Source: Paenibacillus sp. FSL R7-0273
GTDB taxonomy: Bacteria > Bacillota > Bacilli > Paenibacillales > Paenibacillaceae
Reading direction: 5' to 3'
DNA: 64,000 nucleotides
Assembly (NCBI RefSeq): GCF_000758625.1
Contig: NZ_CP009283.1
Coordinates: 2,739,501-2,803,500, forward strand
Shown here: positions 1,350-8,449 of the stretch, in pieces
Position numbering within the stretch: position 1 is the first letter of the stretch
How the letters are laid out: each line of letters opens with the position of its first letter
The notes under the pieces: generated by a model
Databases searched by the model: none
What the model was told of the DNA's origin: nothing
What the model saw: only the letters and a program-made list of their open reading frames with translations
Position numbers and translations under genes: made by a program

Positions 1350-1368
1350 AAACGTAATAATTACGATT
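1350..1368 (+). promoter_or_regulatory. Zur box upstream of zinT
   Basis: Dyad CGTAAT-A-ATTACG centred on 1359 with A/T-rich flanks, matching the Bacillus Zur 7-1-7 pattern (TCGTAATNATTACGA). A near copy stands before zur at 6893-6913. It predicts repression of zinT-znuACB by zinc-loaded Zur. Confidence 0.88.
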
Positions 1369-1393: not shown

Positions 1394-2359
1394 TTGAAAA
1401 AAATATCTTTATTTATTTGTTTATTGGCTTTTAGCGTGATGTTAGCAGCATGTCAAAGCACAGAAGAAGGATCAGCTGCTAATACTAATGCAACAGCAGA
1501 AGTAGAGGAGACAAATGTACAAGAGGCAGGAAAAATTACAGTAGAAGGTTTAGGTGACCATTATCACACAGGGGATAAAATCGAATTAACTGCTGTACTT
1601 AGTGAAGAGGTTGATTATGATCACTGGCATTGGTACACAAAAGATAGTGGACAGTCTGAGTGGAAGGCGGCTTCTGGTCAAGAGGCTGAAACCTTTACCG
1701 GGGAAGCAACTGCGGACGGCATTGAAATTAAAGCTACACTTTACGATAACAATCATGAAGTATACGCAGAATCCGAGCCAGTGACCATCGTTATCGACGA
1801 TCACCATGGTCATGACGAAGCGAGTCGAAATATTAATAAAGGTATCTTTACCGATGAACAAGTACAAGATCGTGAACTGTCTGACTGGGAAGGAGACTGG
1901 CAGTCTGTATATCCTTACCTTTTAGCTGGTGACTTGGACGAGGTTTATGAACATAAAGCCCAAGATGGCAAAATGACAGCGGAAGAATACAAAGAATACT
2001 ACAACACCGGGTATGAAACAGATGTAGAGCGCATCACTATTGATAACGGCCATGTCACGTTTTTCAAAAATGGACAAAAATCCGAGGGCGACTACGAGTA
2101 TGATGGACACGAGATCCTTACTTATGAAGCCGGTAATCGGGGCGTACGCTTTATTTATAAGCTAGTTGATGATAATAGTGATATGCCGCAATATATTCAA
2201 TTCAGTGACCACCTCATATATCCAACGGATTCTCATCATTACCATTTATACTGGGGAGATAACCGTGAAGAACTCTTAAAAGAGGTTACAAATTGGCCAA
2301 CATATTATCCTTCAAGTTATGATTCAAAAGCTATCGTTCGCGACCTATTAGCGCATTAA
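1394..2359 (+). CDS. zinT: ZinT-family zinc-binding lipoprotein with an extra N-terminal HYHTGD module
   Basis: Residues 1-20 form a lipoprotein signal ending in the lipobox LAAC, so the mature 302-residue protein should be anchored outside the membrane. Residues 50-140 are a module (DHYHTGD, DHWHW, EIKATLYD, YAESEPV, DDHHGHD) that occurs twice more in the ZnuA encoded next. Residues about 148-321 are a ZinT/YodA domain, with WEGDWQSVYPYL, MTAEEYKEYY and the His cluster DSHHYHLYWG. ZinT proteins bind zinc outside the cytoplasm and pass it to ZnuA; in many Firmicutes ZinT is fused to the C-terminus of AdcA, whereas here it is separate. The gene sits behind a sigma-A promoter and Zur box. Codons are A/T-rich compared with flanking genes. 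Confidence 0.93.
   Translation: MKKISLFICLLAFSVMLAACQSTEEGSAANTNATAEVEETNVQEAGKITVEGLGDHYHTGDKIELTAVLSEEVDYDHWHWYTKDSGQSEWKAASGQEAETFTGEATADGIEIKATLYDNNHEVYAESEPVTIVIDDHHGHDEASRNINKGIFTDEQVQDRELSDWEGDWQSVYPYLLAGDLDEVYEHKAQDGKMTAEEYKEYYNTGYETDVERITIDNGHVTFFKNGQKSEGDYEYDGHEILTYEAGNRGVRFIYKLVDDNSDMPQYIQFSDHLIYPTDSHHYHLYWGDNREELLKEVTNWPTYYPSSYDSKAIVRDLLAH
1541..1815 (+). repeat. HYHTGD/HWHW module, copy 1 (in zinT)
   Basis: About 90 codons encoding the consensus GL-DHYHTGD-IELTA ... DYDHWHWY ... FEVKAV-YD ... VYAESEPV ... IDNH. The spacing of hydrophobic and aromatic residues suggests an Ig-like beta-sandwich, and six to eight His suggest metal binding. Fold and function are inferred. Confidence 0.8.
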
Positions 2360-2439: not shown

Positions 2440-3972
2440 ATGAAATTTAAAATGCTCCAAACGCTAGCCGTTCTTTTAACTGTGACATTAGTTCTTTTCG
2501 GGTGTCAGTCGCAAAAGCTAGAGGAGGGTTCCACTGGCAACAATGAAACGACCATTTCTGTTGTAGCTTCTTTTTTACCTATGTATGAATTTACTAAAAA
2601 GGTTGCAGGAGATCGGGCGGATGTGCAACTAATGGTCTCCGAAGGGCAGGATGCACATCACTATGAACCTAGTGCACAAGATGTAGCGGTTGTAAACAAA
2701 GCAGATGTGTTTGTGTATAGTAGCGATGAGATGGAATTTTGGACGAAAAGCCTTTTTAAAACGATAGAGAATGACAATCTCATCATTGTGCGTGCAGCAG
2801 ATGGCCCTGGTAGACCGGAAACAGAAAAGGTACAGGTTGAAGGCGCAGCTAATCATTATCATACAGGAGATGAGATTGAGCTAACGGCGAAATTAACAGG
2901 AGATGCAGATTATGATCATTGGCATTGGTATCAGCGAGCAGATGCTAATGAAGAATGGGCAGCGATTTCGGGACAAGGAACGGACACCTTTATTTTAGAA
3001 GCACCGGGAAAAAGTTTCGAAGTTAAAGCGGTTATTTATGATCACAACCACAGTGTATATGCTGAATCTGAACCAGTAGAGCTTCATATAGACAATCATG
3101 ATAATCATGTGCACATAGATGAAAAGCATGAAGAAAATGACCATGAAGATCACAGCCATACACAAGCAGGAGAAGGCGTGTCGATTGTCGGTTTAGCAGA
3201 TCACTATCACACAGGAGATGTTGTTACGCTTAATGCCAATATAATAGAAGAGAAAAATTATGAGCATTGGAATTGGTTCGTAAGAGAGGATTCAGAGCAA
3301 GATTGGGAGGCTGTACCAGATCAAGAGACTGAGCGTTTTGAATATAAGACATCTGGAGATAGCTTTGAAGTGAAGGCTGTACTTTATGATAATGATCATA
3401 ATGTCTATGCAGAATCAAGTGCCATTTCTGTAAAGATTGATAACCATGAAGGTAAAGACCCTCATATCTGGCTTGATCCGGTATTGGCGCAAGATCAGGT
3501 TCTGGCTATTCGCAATGCTTTAATAGAGGCAGATCCAAATGGAAAGCAGATTTATGAGGAAAACGCAGAAGCTTTTGTGAAGGAGCTTAAGGCGTTGGAT
3601 AACGATTATCAGGCTGCGCTGAAGGATGCTGAGCACAGAACCTTTGTTGTACAGCACCAAGCCTTCGGCTATCTTGCAGATCGATACAATTTAGAACAAA
3701 TTGCAATTGGCGGACTATCAACTGAAGTGGAACCAAGCCCTTCCAGAATTGCTGAGATTTCTGAGTTAGTTCATAAACACAACGTTCCGGTTATTTATTA
3801 TCAACAAGGGGCCAGCTCCTCTATTGCTCAAACTGTTGCTACAGAAACAGGGACAGAAACGGCTGTCTTGTATGATTTAGAGGTACTCTCTGAAGAATTA
3901 CTGGCAAATGATTTAGGATATTTGGAAGCCATGCGTCATAACCTTGAAGCACTGCAAGCCAGTATACATTGA
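2440..3972 (+). CDS. znuA: Zinc ABC transporter substrate-binding lipoprotein ZnuA/AdcA with two inserted modules
   Basis: A lipoprotein signal ends in LFGC (Cys about 22). Residues 30-130 and 337-510 are the two lobes of a cluster A-I metal-binding protein. Expected zinc ligands are present: H73 in QDAHHYEP, H341 in DPHIWLDP, H406 in VVQHQAFGY and E481 in DLEVLS. At 510 residues it is about 200 longer than a usual ZnuA. The surplus lies where ZnuA normally has a short His-rich loop: residues 131-219 and 247-336 are two copies of the HYHTGD/HWHW module found in ZinT, joined by a linker rich in His, Asp and Glu. It should deliver zinc to ZnuBC. The ligand set shows that this is a functional binding protein despite the insertion. 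Confidence 0.93.
   Translation: MKFKMLQTLAVLLTVTLVLFGCQSQKLEEGSTGNNETTISVVASFLPMYEFTKKVAGDRADVQLMVSEGQDAHHYEPSAQDVAVVNKADVFVYSSDEMEFWTKSLFKTIENDNLIIVRAADGPGRPETEKVQVEGAANHYHTGDEIELTAKLTGDADYDHWHWYQRADANEEWAAISGQGTDTFILEAPGKSFEVKAVIYDHNHSVYAESEPVELHIDNHDNHVHIDEKHEENDHEDHSHTQAGEGVSIVGLADHYHTGDVVTLNANIIEEKNYEHWNWFVREDSEQDWEAVPDQETERFEYKTSGDSFEVKAVLYDNDHNVYAESSAISVKIDNHEGKDPHIWLDPVLAQDQVLAIRNALIEADPNGKQIYEENAEAFVKELKALDNDYQAALKDAEHRTFVVQHQAFGYLADRYNLEQIAIGGLSTEVEPSPSRIAEISELVHKHNVPVIYYQQGASSSIAQTVATETGTETAVLYDLEVLSEELLANDLGYLEAMRHNLEALQASIH
2830..3096 (+). repeat. HYHTGD/HWHW module, copy 2 (first copy inside znuA)
   Basis: Codons 131-219 of znuA: NHYHTGDEIELTA, DYDHWHWYQ, SFEVKAVIYD, VYAESEPVELHIDNH. 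It is very close to the zinT copy. The following 27 codons form a linker rich in His, Asp and Glu. Confidence 0.85.
3178..3447 (+). repeat. HYHTGD/HWHW module, copy 3 (second copy inside znuA)
   Basis: Codons 247-336 of znuA: DHYHTGDVVTLNA, NYEHWNWFV, SFEVKAVLYD, VYAESSAISVKIDNH. It is the most diverged copy (HWHW has become HWNW). The ZnuA core resumes within five residues at DPHIWLDP. Confidence 0.85.
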
Positions 3973-4016: not shown

Positions 4017-4721
4017 ATGTACTATGTAAAGGTAGATGGACTTGCTTTTCATTATGAGAATGAACCTGTTTTAACCGATATATCGTTTGAATTAAGGCCA
4101 GGGGACTTTATTATGCTGACAGGAGAAAATGGAGCTGCTAAAACCACATTGTTACGGAATATCTTGGGTTTGCTTAAGCCTGCCACCGGACAAGTTAACT
4201 TATCACCAGTAAATACTAATGGAGATAAGTTAATCATAGGATACGTTCCTCAACAAGTGGCTTCGTTTAATGTTGGTTTTCCTAGTACTGTATTGGAACT
4301 GGTCCAGTCTGGTCGTTATCAAAGAGGTAAATGGATAAGAAAATTAAACAATGATGACAACGAACAAGTCAGACGAGCACTTGAATCAGTTGCAATGTGG
4401 GACATGCGCTTTAAAAAAATCGGTGAGTTATCGGGAGGGCAAAAGCAAAGGATTTCTATAGCACGTGTTTTTGCTACAGATCCGGATTTATTTGTTTTGG
4501 ACGAACCTACCACAGGTATGGATACCAAGTCACGCGAGGAGTTTTACAGGCTGTTAAAGCATCACAGTGAGTCCCATGGAAAAGGAATAATGATGGTCAC
4601 ACATGATCACGATGAACTGAAAAATTATTGTAACAAGCATATTGAACTTATACGAAAGGTGGGCTCACCTTGGAGATGTTTCTCTATGGATTCATGCAAA
4701 GAGCTTTCCAAGCCTCACTGA
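4017..4721 (+). CDS. znuC: Zinc ABC transporter ATP-binding protein (ZnuC/AdcC)
   Basis: This 234-residue nucleotide-binding protein energises zinc import with ZnuB. It has the signature LSGGQKQR, Walker B LFVLDEP and the switch His in MVTHDHDE, and ends in the SPWRCF tail typical of AdcC. The Walker A reads GENGAAKT (residues 36-43), with Ala in place of the third Gly of GxxGxGK[ST]. As far as I recall, streptococcal AdcC proteins share this, so I read it as a subfamily trait rather than damage. The 3' end overlaps znuB by 52 bases, which implies translational coupling. A+T-rich codon use matches the rest of the island. Confidence 0.93.
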   Translation: MYYVKVDGLAFHYENEPVLTDISFELRPGDFIMLTGENGAAKTTLLRNILGLLKPATGQVNLSPVNTNGDKLIIGYVPQQVASFNVGFPSTVLELVQSGRYQRGKWIRKLNNDDNEQVRRALESVAMWDMRFKKIGELSGGQKQRISIARVFATDPDLFVLDEPTTGMDTKSREEFYRLLKHHSESHGKGIMMVTHDHDELKNYCNKHIELIRKVGSPWRCFSMDSCKELSKPH

Positions 4722-5509
4722 TCATCTCATTAATTGCACCATTGTTAGGATTGTTTCTTATATTGCGCAGGCAATCACTTATGGCAGATACCTTATCCCA
4801 CGTTTCATTAGCTGGAGTGGCATTAGGATTAATAACCAGCATCAATCCAACCTGGACAAATATTCTAATGGTAGTCGTTATAGCAGTGTTACTAGAGTAT
4901 ATGCGTATGTTGTATCGGACCTATTCTGAAGTTTCAATTGCCATATTAATGTCGGCCGGGATGGCTATGGCATTGCTTCTTATTAGTTTAAGTAAGGGTG
5001 GCAAAACGGTAAGCATTAATCAATTCTTATTTGGATCTATCGTCACAATTAGTACGGAACAAATTTGGATACTCCTTATATTGGCAGTTATTATTTCGAG
5101 TCTATATTTAATATATCGTAAAGCAATGTACGTAATGGTTTTTGATGAAGAAACAGCTTTCACTGCCGGGCTGCCTATAAAAATGATGTCAATTCTGTTC
5201 AATATGTTAACTGGGGTAACCATTGCTATCATTATGCCCATTGTTGGTGCATTATTAGTGTCAGCTATTTTGATTTTGCCTGCGGCTATTTCTATGCGTT
5301 TGGGGAAAAGTTTTTCAAGCACGATTTTGATAGGGATACCTATTACACTAACAAGTATGCTTAGCGGATTAGTAACTTCTTACGAGTATGGTACTCCACC
5401 CGGTGCAACAATCACCTTAATTCTTGTCGCAATCTTAATGCTTGTAACTATCATTGGTAAAATTATACGGAGGGTCAAAACAGACAAGAAATGGTATAGC
5501 ACCAGATAA
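4670..5509 (+). CDS. znuB: Zinc ABC transporter permease (ZnuB/AdcB)
   Basis: This 279-residue integral membrane protein of the ABC-3 family has about eight hydrophobic segments and the family signature LRRQSLMADTLSHVSLAGVALG near the N-terminus (residues about 32-53). It forms the zinc channel with ZnuC. The start is TTG at 4670, preceded by AAAGGTGG; an in-frame ATG at 4676 is the alternative. It begins inside znuC. A short dyad at about 5522-5540 lies in the 80-base gap before the COG0523 gene, with no terminator, so the operon probably continues. Confidence 0.92.
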   Translation: MEMFLYGFMQRAFQASLIISLIAPLLGLFLILRRQSLMADTLSHVSLAGVALGLITSINPTWTNILMVVVIAVLLEYMRMLYRTYSEVSIAILMSAGMAMALLLISLSKGGKTVSINQFLFGSIVTISTEQIWILLILAVIISSLYLIYRKAMYVMVFDEETAFTAGLPIKMMSILFNMLTGVTIAIIMPIVGALLVSAILILPAAISMRLGKSFSSTILIGIPITLTSMLSGLVTSYEYGTPPGATITLILVAILMLVTIIGKIIRRVKTDKKWYSTR

Positions 5510-5589: not shown

Positions 5590-6735
5590 ATGAGCCGTGT
5601 ACCTGTCACAGTGATATCCGGATATTTAGGATCTGGAAAGACTACGTTGTTACTGCATCTATTACTGTGCAAAGAACAATTGCGAATCGGATTGATCGTC
5701 AATGATTTGGCCGAAGTGAATGTAGATGCAAAAACAATTGAGAAAAGCGAATTTTTTACTGAAAAAGACCGCTTGGTAGTCATGTCGTCGGGCAGTATCA
5801 GCTCAGATTTGAAAACTGAACTTATTGAAGCTGTATATTATCTGGCTGCCTCAGGTGAAGTGGATCTGATCATTGTTGAAGCATCTGGTGTTGCGCTCCC
5901 GCAATTAATTGCTAATACCATCATAAATGGAGTGACGCATGATGGTGTGCCGCTTAATACAGTTTCCCGTCTGGATACGAATGTAACGGTTGTAGATGGC
6001 TACAGGATTTTGGGGCAGTTCACCTCTGAGGATGGTATGTATAACGATGAATATGTAGACAGCAATCAGTTGATTATCAATCAAATCGAATTTTGCGATG
6101 TGCTGGTATTTAATAAAATTGACTTGTTAACTCCTAATGAGAAGGACTATTTGACTTCATTTGTTAGGAAAATTCAGCCTAAGGCATCATTTATCGAGAC
6201 CTCCTTTAGCCGTGTCCTTGTAAAAGATGTTTTAAATACCGGGTTATTTGATGAAATGGCCGGTATCCAGGACGTTCTGGATACAGAAGATCTGAATGAA
6301 TTTATAGAGAACGAAGCAGACCAGCTTGGTATTCAGTCCTTTGTTTATCGCAGAAGAGAACCTTTCCATCCTGTACGGCTTGATCAGTGGCTCGACCGTT
6401 GGCCGCGGGAGGTTACAAGGTGTAAAGGTGTGATGTGGCTGATTACACAGGCAGAAACGGTGTTCAAAATCTCGCAATCCGGCCGAGCTATGGATATTAT
6501 TCCGGCGGGCTACTGGATCGCTTCCCTAAATTCAGATGAAATCAGACAGTTGTTTGCTGCTAGAGAAGGTCTGAAGGAAATTTGGGATGCCCGTTTTGGA
6601 GACCGGATGATTGAGCTTGTCTTTATAGGGAAAGACATGGACAAAGAGCAAATTATACAGGATTTAGATGCCTGTCTGGTTCAAGAGGACGAGGTCGTGA
6701 ATAGTAGTGAAGATCCATTTAAGCTGCCGGGGTAG
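5590..6735 (+). CDS. COG0523 (CobW/ZagA-type) GTPase lacking the CxCC motif
   Basis: This 381-residue G3E GTPase has P-loop GYLGSGKTT at residues 11-19, Walker B-like LIIVEASG, base-specificity motif FNKIDLL and a CobW C-terminal domain (about 300-370). COG0523 proteins under Zur control, such as YciC/ZagA, act as zinc metallochaperones. The hallmark GCxCC zinc site after the P-loop is replaced here by G-S-I-S-S (S69, S71, S72; bases 5794-5805), so all three metal-ligating cysteines are serine. The surrounding fold motifs are intact, which suggests a functional cysteine-free variant rather than decay. A good ribosome site (GAGGAGGCGG) precedes ATG 5590. It closes the znu operon. Family certain, function uncertain. 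Confidence 0.9.
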   Translation: MSRVPVTVISGYLGSGKTTLLLHLLLCKEQLRIGLIVNDLAEVNVDAKTIEKSEFFTEKDRLVVMSSGSISSDLKTELIEAVYYLAASGEVDLIIVEASGVALPQLIANTIINGVTHDGVPLNTVSRLDTNVTVVDGYRILGQFTSEDGMYNDEYVDSNQLIINQIEFCDVLVFNKIDLLTPNEKDYLTSFVRKIQPKASFIETSFSRVLVKDVLNTGLFDEMAGIQDVLDTEDLNEFIENEADQLGIQSFVYRRREPFHPVRLDQWLDRWPREVTRCKGVMWLITQAETVFKISQSGRAMDIIPAGYWIASLNSDEIRQLFAAREGLKEIWDARFGDRMIELVFIGKDMDKEQIIQDLDACLVQEDEVVNSSEDPFKLPG

Positions 6736-6892: not shown

Positions 6893-6913
6893 AAATCGTA
6901 ATAATTACGAATA
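6893..6913 (+). promoter_or_regulatory. Zur box upstream of zur
   Basis: Perfect dyad TCGTAAT-A-ATTACGA at 6896-6910 inside A/T-rich flanks. It predicts autoregulation of zur and zinc control of L31. A ribosome-site-like AAGAGGAGAG just after it (about 6916-6925) has no start codon, leaving about 120 bases of leader before zur. Confidence 0.88.
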
Positions 6914-7032
6914 AGTAAGAGGAGAGTATTTTAGAGCTATTTTACACTTTTTTGAAAAGAAATCGTTGAAGCTTGGGACATTTAAGAATAAATAATTCTT
7001 GTTTCCGGTTTTTGGCAAAAAGGGGACGGTAA

Positions 7033-7458
7033 ATGGGAAGCAAATGGTTAGAATTAGTTGAAGCGATGGAGGAAAAGGGGCTTCGGGTAACTTTTCAACG
7101 TAAACTTATTGCTGAAGTTTTCTCATCTACGAATGGGTTCGTGCTGCCCCGTCAAATTCATTCTTATATTGCTAAAGATATACCAGGGGTCAGCTACGAT
7201 ACCGTTTATCGCAATCTGAGAGTTATGGTGGAAATTGGATTAATTGAACAATTTGATTTTAAAGAAGGCTTCCGCTACAAATTACGGTGTGGTCCCGACC
7301 ACCACCATCATCATTTCATCTGCTTGGCGTGCCACAAAACATATCCACTTGAATTCTGTCCCATTGATATGGGAATTAAGACCCCGGAAGCATTCGAAGT
7401 AATATCTCATAAATTTGAAATTTACGGCTATTGTGAAGAATGTGCGCATGGGAAGTAG
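7033..7458 (+). CDS. zur: Fur-family transcriptional regulator, probably Zur
   Basis: This 141-residue protein has an N-terminal winged helix ([27 protein letters not shown]) and a C-terminal metal and dimer domain with CLAC and CEEC zinc-structural pairs and a His-rich DHHHHHF sensor region. The Fur family includes Fur, PerR and Zur. Assignment to Zur rests on the Zur boxes upstream of this gene and of zinT, and on the zinc genes around it. When zinc-replete it should repress both operons. It is followed after 53 bases by the L31 gene, so the two are probably co-transcribed. ATG 7033 has GGGGACGG ahead of it. Confidence 0.9.
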
Positions 7459-7511
7459 TGGAAGTCCGCATTACTAATAAACTTGAGATACAAAGAAAGA
7501 GAGTGATTGTT

Positions 7512-7781
7512 ATGAGAGAAGGCATCCATCCAAAGTTTAAACAGGTGATTTTCTTAGATGCAAGCGTTGGTTTTTCATTCCTTAGCGCATCAACCAGAAG
7601 CTCCTCGGAATTAATGGAGTGGGAGGATGGACAAACTTATCCTGTGATTCGTGTAGATTCAAGCTCAGCTTCGCATCCATTTTACACCGGCAGACAAAAG
7701 CATACTGAAACAGGCGGACGCGTTGACAAGTTCAACCAGCGTTTAAGTGCCCAAAAGGAACGGAAAAACGCTCATCAATAA
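7512..7781 (+). CDS. rpmE2: 50S ribosomal protein L31 type B (zinc-independent)
   Basis: Eighty-nine residues starting [12 protein letters not shown], with [20 protein letters not shown] and [10 protein letters not shown], all typical of L31 type B. It contains no cysteine, unlike the zinc-binding CxxC form RpmE. In Bacillus the C-minus L31 is made under zinc limitation and displaces the zinc form, freeing zinc. A longer reading from 7440 would overlap zur and adds residues unlike L31; ATG 7512 with an AAGAGAGTG ribosome site is preferred. Its place behind a Zur box fits this role. Confidence 0.95.
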
Positions 7782-8074: not shown

Positions 8075-8449
8075 ATGAGTCTGATTGTTAGTATTATCAA
8101 AAAGAGAGGTGTATCGATAGATACGGAAGAACTTGAAGCACAGGTACCAGAACCTCATAATAATTTGTTCGGTTATGAATCTTACAGGAAATCATTCTGG
8201 GGGAGTGATGCAGTTAAAGAGCTTGGATGTGAGTTAATATATTCTTTGAGGGAAACAAACGTATATGTTTTTGATGAGGAAATAGAAAAGCTGCAAAGAG
8301 AATTCCATATTATGCTGGAAAATTTAGAATTTCTGATCCTGCGAACAACCCTTGATAAAGAATTTATAGAATTTGCAGCAGGTAATGCCTTAGAGATGAT
8401 AAAGATAGCACTCCGAGAAAAGGATAAGGTTGGAATTGCGCTTTGGTAA
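8075..8449 (+). CDS. Hypothetical protein, 124 residues
   Basis: I do not recognise this family. The protein is acidic and soluble, with no signal or membrane segment, and has a likely helical C-terminal half (EEIEKLQREFHIMLENLEFLILRTTL). A strong ribosome site (GAGGAGGG) precedes ATG 8075. It stands alone between the zinc island and a deacetylase gene. Codon use is A/T-rich like the island. Single small genes of this kind are often immunity or stress proteins, but nothing here shows that. Confidence 0.65.
   Translation: MSLIVSIIKKRGVSIDTEELEAQVPEPHNNLFGYESYRKSFWGSDAVKELGCELIYSLRETNVYVFDEEIEKLQREFHIMLENLEFLILRTTLDKEFIEFAAGNALEMIKIALREKDKVGIALW

Follow-up and report, generated by a model that had tools for sequence, protein, structure and literature searches.

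A predicted Ig-like domain with two putative three-histidine metal sites is shared by ZinT and ZnuA in a Paenibacillus zinc-uptake locus

Introduction

Several extracellular zinc proteins of bacteria are thought to feed ABC importers and, on our reading of the papers cited here, the route by which zinc would travel from the wall or a chaperone to the binding protein of the importer is largely unsettled. The closest parallel to the locus described below is that of Corynebacterium diphtheriae, for which a zinc motif common to the binding protein and its neighbours is already published: ZnuE, ZnuF and ZnuG are reported to share an HxD/HxH motif that ZnuA has in the reverse order, and deletion of znuE to reduce growth in low zinc (PMC12445094). 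The znu cluster of this species is described as zinc- and Zur-regulated (PMC6711530); for the Corynebacterium motif, the authors state that a role of the conserved His in binding zinc could not be firmly established in vitro (PMC12445094). An anchored-repeat zinc transporter of actinobacteria combines a TIGR03772 binding protein with surface proteins of the TIGR03773, choice-of-anchor M (NF038134) and TIGR03769 families. In AdcA of Streptococcus pneumoniae, a His-rich loop and a ZinT domain are reported to aid zinc recruitment, with transfer via the loop suggested (PMC7858048). The surface zinc-binding repeats of PhtD have been proposed to release zinc to AdcAII (PMC3842936), AztD is described as a two-site zinc chaperone that delivers to AztC, whose loop has His-Tyr-His (PMC6689063), and the cyanobacterial protein ZepA as a secreted mediator of zinc uptake that has an Ig-like domain and, putatively, a zinc pocket made of His (PMC10957091).

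Here we analyse a window of 64,000 nucleotides from Paenibacillus sp. FSL R7-0273 (contig NZ_CP009283.1, positions 2,739,501 to 2,803,500) in which ZinT and a ZnuA-type binding protein share a repeated module. As in the anchored-repeat transporter, the insert of the binding protein holds a domain common to a neighbouring surface protein, and three Streptomyces binding proteins have their insert where the ZnuA modules are found here. The domain inserted in that transporter is, however, another one, whereas ZinT is the partner here, and one or two HYHTGD modules make up the insert. The locus resembles AdcA in combining a ZnuA core with a ZinT core, but AdcA is a ZnuA-ZinT fusion with a flexible loop, and here two folded modules are predicted and ZinT is a separate protein. 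PhtD differs in having HxxHxH in short three-strand units instead of six His of a predicted Ig-like sandwich, and AztD in being a separate beta-propeller protein of which only site 2 donates. ZepA, whose likeness to the module we draw from its description, differs in having a second domain of new fold. The proposed donor and acceptor of the present locus share one small, excisable and titratable domain, apparently with two sites.

Results

The zinc-uptake genes of the window and the elements around them are collected in Table 1. Both ZinT and ZnuA carry lipoprotein signals, as read from the sequence. The core of ZinT belongs to PF09223, and ZnuA has the domain as well as the ligands of a cluster A-I metal-binding protein (PF01297); its predicted ligands H73, H342, H406 and E481 align, in a comparison with AdcA and Bacillus subtilis YcdH, with the ligand positions given for AdcA (PMC7858048). 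Across 90 proteins, H73, H342 and H406 are invariant and E481 is nearly so. Judging from the gene spacing, the zinc-uptake genes would form one transcript. The Fur-family regulator matches the FUR domain only, all its NCBIfam matches being under cutoff and none of them a Zur model; its context makes it probably Zur. A second zinc-response unit lies at 6896-7781, where an exact Zur-like box is followed by the Fur-family gene and then by type B L31.

Table 1. Genes and elements of the zinc-uptake locus, in positions of the window
Feature	Position	Strand	Description
Candidate Zur-like box	1352..1366	+	1 mismatch to TCGTAATNATTACGA; zinT start codon 27 bases further on
zinT, lipoprotein, module at N-terminus	1394..2359	+	321 aa; PF09223 E 1.4e-80, residues 144-321; lipobox read from sequence
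ZinT module copy	1532..1804	+	residues 47-137; site A H56, H58, H137; site B H77, H79, H121
znuA, ZnuA-type binding lipoprotein, two inserted modules	2440..3972	+	510 aa; PF01297 E 5.6e-71
ZnuA module 1	2827..3102	+	residues 130-221; site A H139, H141, H220; site B H160, H162, H204
ZnuA His/Asp/Glu-rich linker	3103..3177	+	residues 222-246; model confidence low
ZnuA module 2	3178..3450	+	residues 247-337; site A H255, H257, H336; site B incomplete (H276, N278, H320)
ABC ATPase, ZnuC-like	4017..4721	+	PF00005; NCBIfam matches, e.g. AztA, ZnuC, under cutoff
Metal ABC permease, ZnuB-like	4670..5509	+	PF00950 E 3.7e-72; AztB, ZnuB models under cutoff
CobW/COG0523-type GTPase, ZigA-like	5590..6735	+	NF038288 E 1.1e-94, 317.5 bits, under its cutoff of 600; PF02492, PF07683
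Candidate Zur-like box, exact	6896..6910	+	upstream of Fur-family gene
Fur-family regulator, probably Zur by context	7033..7458	+	PF01475
Type B ribosomal protein L31	7512..7781	+	NF002462, 118 bits against a cutoff of 86

The original prediction described three copies of a module of about 90 residues, one in ZinT and two in ZnuA. The open reading frames are as claimed, and a profile search recovered the module, about 92 residues long, at the residues given in Table 1. The copies are identical at 52/91, 40/90 and 43/93 aligned positions, with pairwise alignment scores (301, 260 and 264) far above the best of 1000 shuffles of each (67, 65 and 60). They are old, since local DNA identity between them is only about two thirds. 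Aligned with YcdH and AdcA, the ZnuA modules occupy the place of the His-rich stretch of these proteins, directly before ligand H342. The predicted position, at the site of the His-rich loop of other ZnuA proteins and between the first two ligands, is thereby borne out, save that the second ligand is H342 and not H341. The linker rich in His, Asp and Glu that was said to join the ZnuA pair is present, its exact span now corrected to residues 222-246. The sequence blocks named as common to the copies are also present, with HWNW in the second ZnuA copy, except that FEVKAV is restricted to the two copies of ZnuA.

Full-length scans of ZnuA and ZinT gave no Pfam or NCBIfam match above cutoff over the module, in line with the original prediction, which could name no family for it. 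When 18 module sequences were scanned singly, no family matched more than 1/18, the best E values being 0.0068 for Pfam and 0.018 for NCBIfam; against the sequences of the PDB, the best match of the module profile had an E value of 0.34, and the matches were mostly Ig-like chains. DUF4369 was considered as a family for the module and rejected, its match to ZnuA residues 298-337 scoring 19.7 bits against a cutoff of 25 and its match among the single modules being one of the 18 (E 0.01). Against the TIGR03772 model of the anchored-repeat binding protein, ZnuA scores 103.4 bits, under the curated cutoff of 350.45. Homology to choice-of-anchor M or TIGR03769 domains was not found either: the module scans gave no match to them, and hhalign returned a probability of 0.3% in a comparison with 10 TIGR03769-bearing segments from four loci, an alignment small enough to miss a distant relation. 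On the predicted model the module is a beta sandwich of about seven strands that qualifies as Ig/fibronectin III-like, as the Ig-like domain of the original prediction would be. The 50 Foldseek matches listed for the ZnuA model are all metal-binding proteins of the ZnuA fold, so the assignment of the module fold rests on the ZinT model. With pTM of 0.66 and 0.58 for the predicted models, domain orientation was left unused. A search of the open-licence literature found no description of an HYHTGD domain with two sites or of its use with ZinT, though one may exist elsewhere. We therefore describe the module as an apparently Ig/Fn3-like domain for which the databases and literature searched gave no family name.

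The module also occurs outside the ZinT/ZnuA pair. Homologues were gathered by the 5-residue words they have in common, so that copies containing the HYHTGD block are favoured, and three protein searches (best 120 of 154, best 120 of 122, and 104 of 104) yielded at least 277 distinct module proteins. The best 120 of 154 proteins from the first search, together with the ZinT of the window, comprise 95 ZnuA, of which 87 have two modules and 8 have one, and 26 ZinT with a single module. A further 78 proteins, mostly surface proteins with a few ZnuA among them (P0234, P0239, P0246, P0270), carry one module in 40 cases and six in 5. In the six-module surface proteins (P0206, P0207, P0208, P0214, P0216), some modules have site A alone or site B alone. 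Surface proteins with the module contain up to 6 copies, and the named ones among them are actinobacterial. SLH domains occur in four module proteins of the search for which 104 of 104 matches were listed.

A genome scan by an HYH-based pattern gave 111 coding stretches, of which the best 80 were used; more divergent loci and those that lack HYH are consequently missing from the resulting 77 named loci, which belong mostly to genera of the Bacillales and Lactobacillales. These genera are known for salt or alkali tolerance. The loci combine a one-module ZinT with a two-module ZnuA (37) or a one-module ZnuA (6), or a one-module ZnuA with a stand-alone module protein (7); the rest have ZnuA only (10), ZinT but no module-bearing ZnuA in the stretch (13, one of them interrupted) or actinobacterial surface proteins (4). 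A second module protein is hence found beside the module-bearing ZnuA, within the fetched stretch, in 50 of 60 loci (43 ZinT, 7 stand-alone). The interrupted gene is that of Alkalibacterium olivapovliticus (L082, 5848-6834), in which the module of ZinT spans two ORFs of the same frame. Of the stand-alone proteins, all of them beside ZnuA, six are from Alkalibacterium and one is from Desemzia. Those of Alkalibacterium (L038, L039, L040, L048, L053, L054) are lipoproteins encoded upstream of znuA, with no ZinT in the fetched stretch, and end exactly at the conserved final His, which the Desemzia protein does not.

In four actinobacterial loci, three of Streptomyces and one of Actinophytocola, surface proteins that bear choice-of-anchor M domains also contain the module, both domain types being present in one protein. 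A sortase-signal model scored above cutoff in one Streptomyces surface protein and below it in two others. In the three Streptomyces loci, the module surface protein adjoins a binding protein with a different insert; these binding proteins (L065 7487-9139, L078 7100-8989, L083 7953-9620) match TIGR03772 above cutoff, and their insert is a choice-of-anchor M domain.

Co-variation was analysed on extended segments: of 449 matches, 13 partial ones were dropped, and the remaining 436 were reduced to 192 by removing those at least 70% identical. Rather than being dispersed, the six conserved histidines of the module vary together in two trios. Among the 192 non-redundant modules, phi is 0.92-0.97 within trio A (His 139, 141 and 220, in the numbering of the first ZnuA module) and 0.75-0.85 within trio B (His 160, 162 and 204); between the trios it is -0.08 to -0.11, significant in none of nine pairs. 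The four strongest of 1198 column pairs at least 10 apart are H139-H220, H141-H220, H162-H204 and H160-H204, where the 95th percentile of all pairs is 0.44. The fifth strongest, T142-P154, reaches phi -0.73, which means that lineage or subfamily structure alone also makes strong correlations. Both trios are complete in 89 modules, A only in 37 and B only in 28, with 30 mixed; the 8/192 that have neither speak against the two-trio reading. Site A is invariant in the first 206 modules gathered; in that set, ordered by corrected mutual information, H162-H204 and H160-H204 come no higher than 7th and 8th among 4278 pairs.

Changes at the trios were also placed on a single tree of 88 columns, made without the six His and five neighbours. 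For trio A, 10-11 of 11-13 branches with changes are shared against about 0.4 expected, and for trio B 11-14 of 19-23 against 1.1-1.3 expected; the count of zero shared branches between the trios is uninformative, as only 0.5-0.8 were expected. In the Ig topology, one end of the sandwich carries the A-B turn and the close of strand G, and the opposite end carries the F-G loop and the beginning of strand C. Co-variation divides the histidines in the same way, which in our view argues well for a pair of three-His metal sites in each module, the spatial grouping of each trio being deduced from the strand order. The zinc-collecting role first proposed for the module finds a zinc context in the Zur-like boxes, the ABC transporter, the ZigA-like GTPase and type B L31, and is sharpened here to two putative metal sites.

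The two sites are unequally kept in the transporter proteins. Site A is complete in 285/285 ZnuA and ZinT modules (92/92 first, 92/92 last and 13/13 single ZnuA modules, and 88/88 of ZinT). Site B is complete in 83/92 first, 52/92 last and 7/13 single modules of ZnuA and in 68/88 of ZinT, partial trios being common in last ZnuA modules (23/92) and in ZinT (19/88). The 151 modules of other proteins, meaning those that match neither the ZnuA nor the ZinT motif and so may include fragments of either, have complete B without A in 46 cases, complete A without B in 26, both in 59 and neither in 10. The last site A His stands six residues ahead of the ZnuA ligand in 93/101 binding proteins, and in ZinT this His is continued by another His motif, which reads HGHDE in 46/72 proteins. 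Together, the completeness of site A, the six-residue spacing and the His motif of ZinT suggest that site A may be the outlet to the acceptor.

Zur-like boxes were scored against TCGTAATNATTACGA, which we take to be the consensus letters of the Zur box. The 64 kb of the window contain 2 matches with at most 2 mismatches against 0.13 expected, and 2 matches occurred in 1/100 shuffles. Among the 77 loci, searched from 300 bases upstream of the first module gene to 30 bases inside it, a box is found in 63, 60 and 48 at up to 3, 2 and 1 mismatches, against 2.4, 0.2 and 0.0 in shuffles of the same stretches that keep base content only. No box was found in 14/77 loci, four actinobacterial and ten not; in the actinobacterial loci a different Zur consensus would be expected. 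The Zur box has been described as an inverted repeat (PMC4324032), and in B. subtilis zinT and znuA are reported as Zur targets and ZinT as a surface lipoprotein (PMC5007448).

Discussion

We explain the observed repeat, its position and distribution, the co-variation of its histidine trios and the Zur-like boxes by an Ig/Fn3-like domain with two His3 sites, most likely for zinc, that collects the metal and in which site A acts as a local donor to the ZnuA site. We consider this explanation probable; the identity of the metal, the geometry of the sites and the direction of transfer are what we infer in it. One three-His metal site would lie at each end of the sandwich. Under zinc shortage, derepression by Zur would lead ZinT and ZnuA to capture zinc on the outside of the membrane. 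Site A in the last ZnuA module would serve as the local donor to the ZnuA site, H342 following its third His by six residues, and site B as an extra collecting or relay site. Against this explanation stand the partial site B trios, the loci without a Zur-like box and, for AdcA, reported growth experiments at low zinc that gave no significant effect of deleting either the loop or the ZinT domain alone (PMC7858048). A more ambitious version, which we hold to be doubtful, is a relay in which site B takes up zinc and passes it to site A at the other end, after which it goes from module to module (from ZinT or a surface protein to ZnuA) and reaches H342, in two phyla; if true, a chain of Ig-like units would conduct zinc from the wall to the importer.

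A hand-over to ZnuA is the point at which a passive store parts from the donor reading, since modules could bind zinc at the cell surface as a sponge and stop there. The six modules of some surface proteins (5/78) would suit such a store, and so would C. diphtheriae, where wall proteins with a different zinc motif are reported to limit growth when the transporter is missing, perhaps, according to the authors, by sequestration (PMC12445094). A store would not, however, account for site A being complete in every ZnuA and ZinT module and yet absent from many modules elsewhere, nor for the prevailing spacing of 6 to the ZnuA ligand (93/101), and we think it unlikely. Somewhat less unlikely, and compatible with the donor reading, is that the modules are docking domains, those of ZinT and ZnuA touching like with like and zinc perhaps bridging them. 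The frequent presence of a second module protein beside the module-bearing ZnuA (50/60) is what such contacts would lead one to expect, but the other 10/60 loci have none in the stretch, and the three Streptomyces loci pair a module surface protein with a binding protein of different insert.

The identity of the metal is not readable from sequence, and the histidines might bind copper or nickel instead, or be structural. We regard this as very improbable, given that the same stretch has Zur-like boxes, a metal ABC transporter, type B L31 and a ZigA-like GTPase, and because joint loss of a trio is not expected of structural residues.

The preferred reading, a two-site domain with site A as donor, would supply a name for a domain that has 449 matches in the gathered proteins, and of which Pfam and NCBIfam cover none in the proteins that were scanned. 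Modules of surface proteins that retain one trio amount to natural single-site versions; as both site-A-only and site-B-only forms exist, the roles of the two sites are directly testable.

The zinc stretch was likely gained laterally, mainly because of its distribution. The module is present in 1/100 genomes of the genus, that of the window only, and in 3/398 genomes of a sample of the class, the window's genome among them. A sample of the phylum (398 genomes) gave the window's genome and two weak matches in other genomes, an SLH protein (L010, E 2.2e-4) and L011 (E 8.7e-4); these are probably due to chance and were set aside, their E values being near chance for 398 genomes. The closest relatives among the matches listed bear the names Paenibacillus, Terribacillus and Neobacillus. 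G+C content is 55% in the first kilobase of the window and 38-42% from about 1.0 to 9.0 kb; to the right of the zinc stretch the step is gradual, with 44-49% over the next 5 kb and 51-55% regained near 15 kb. The low-G+C stretch also contains a 124-aa ORF at 8075-8449, for which neither Pfam nor NCBIfam gave a match at the thresholds applied.
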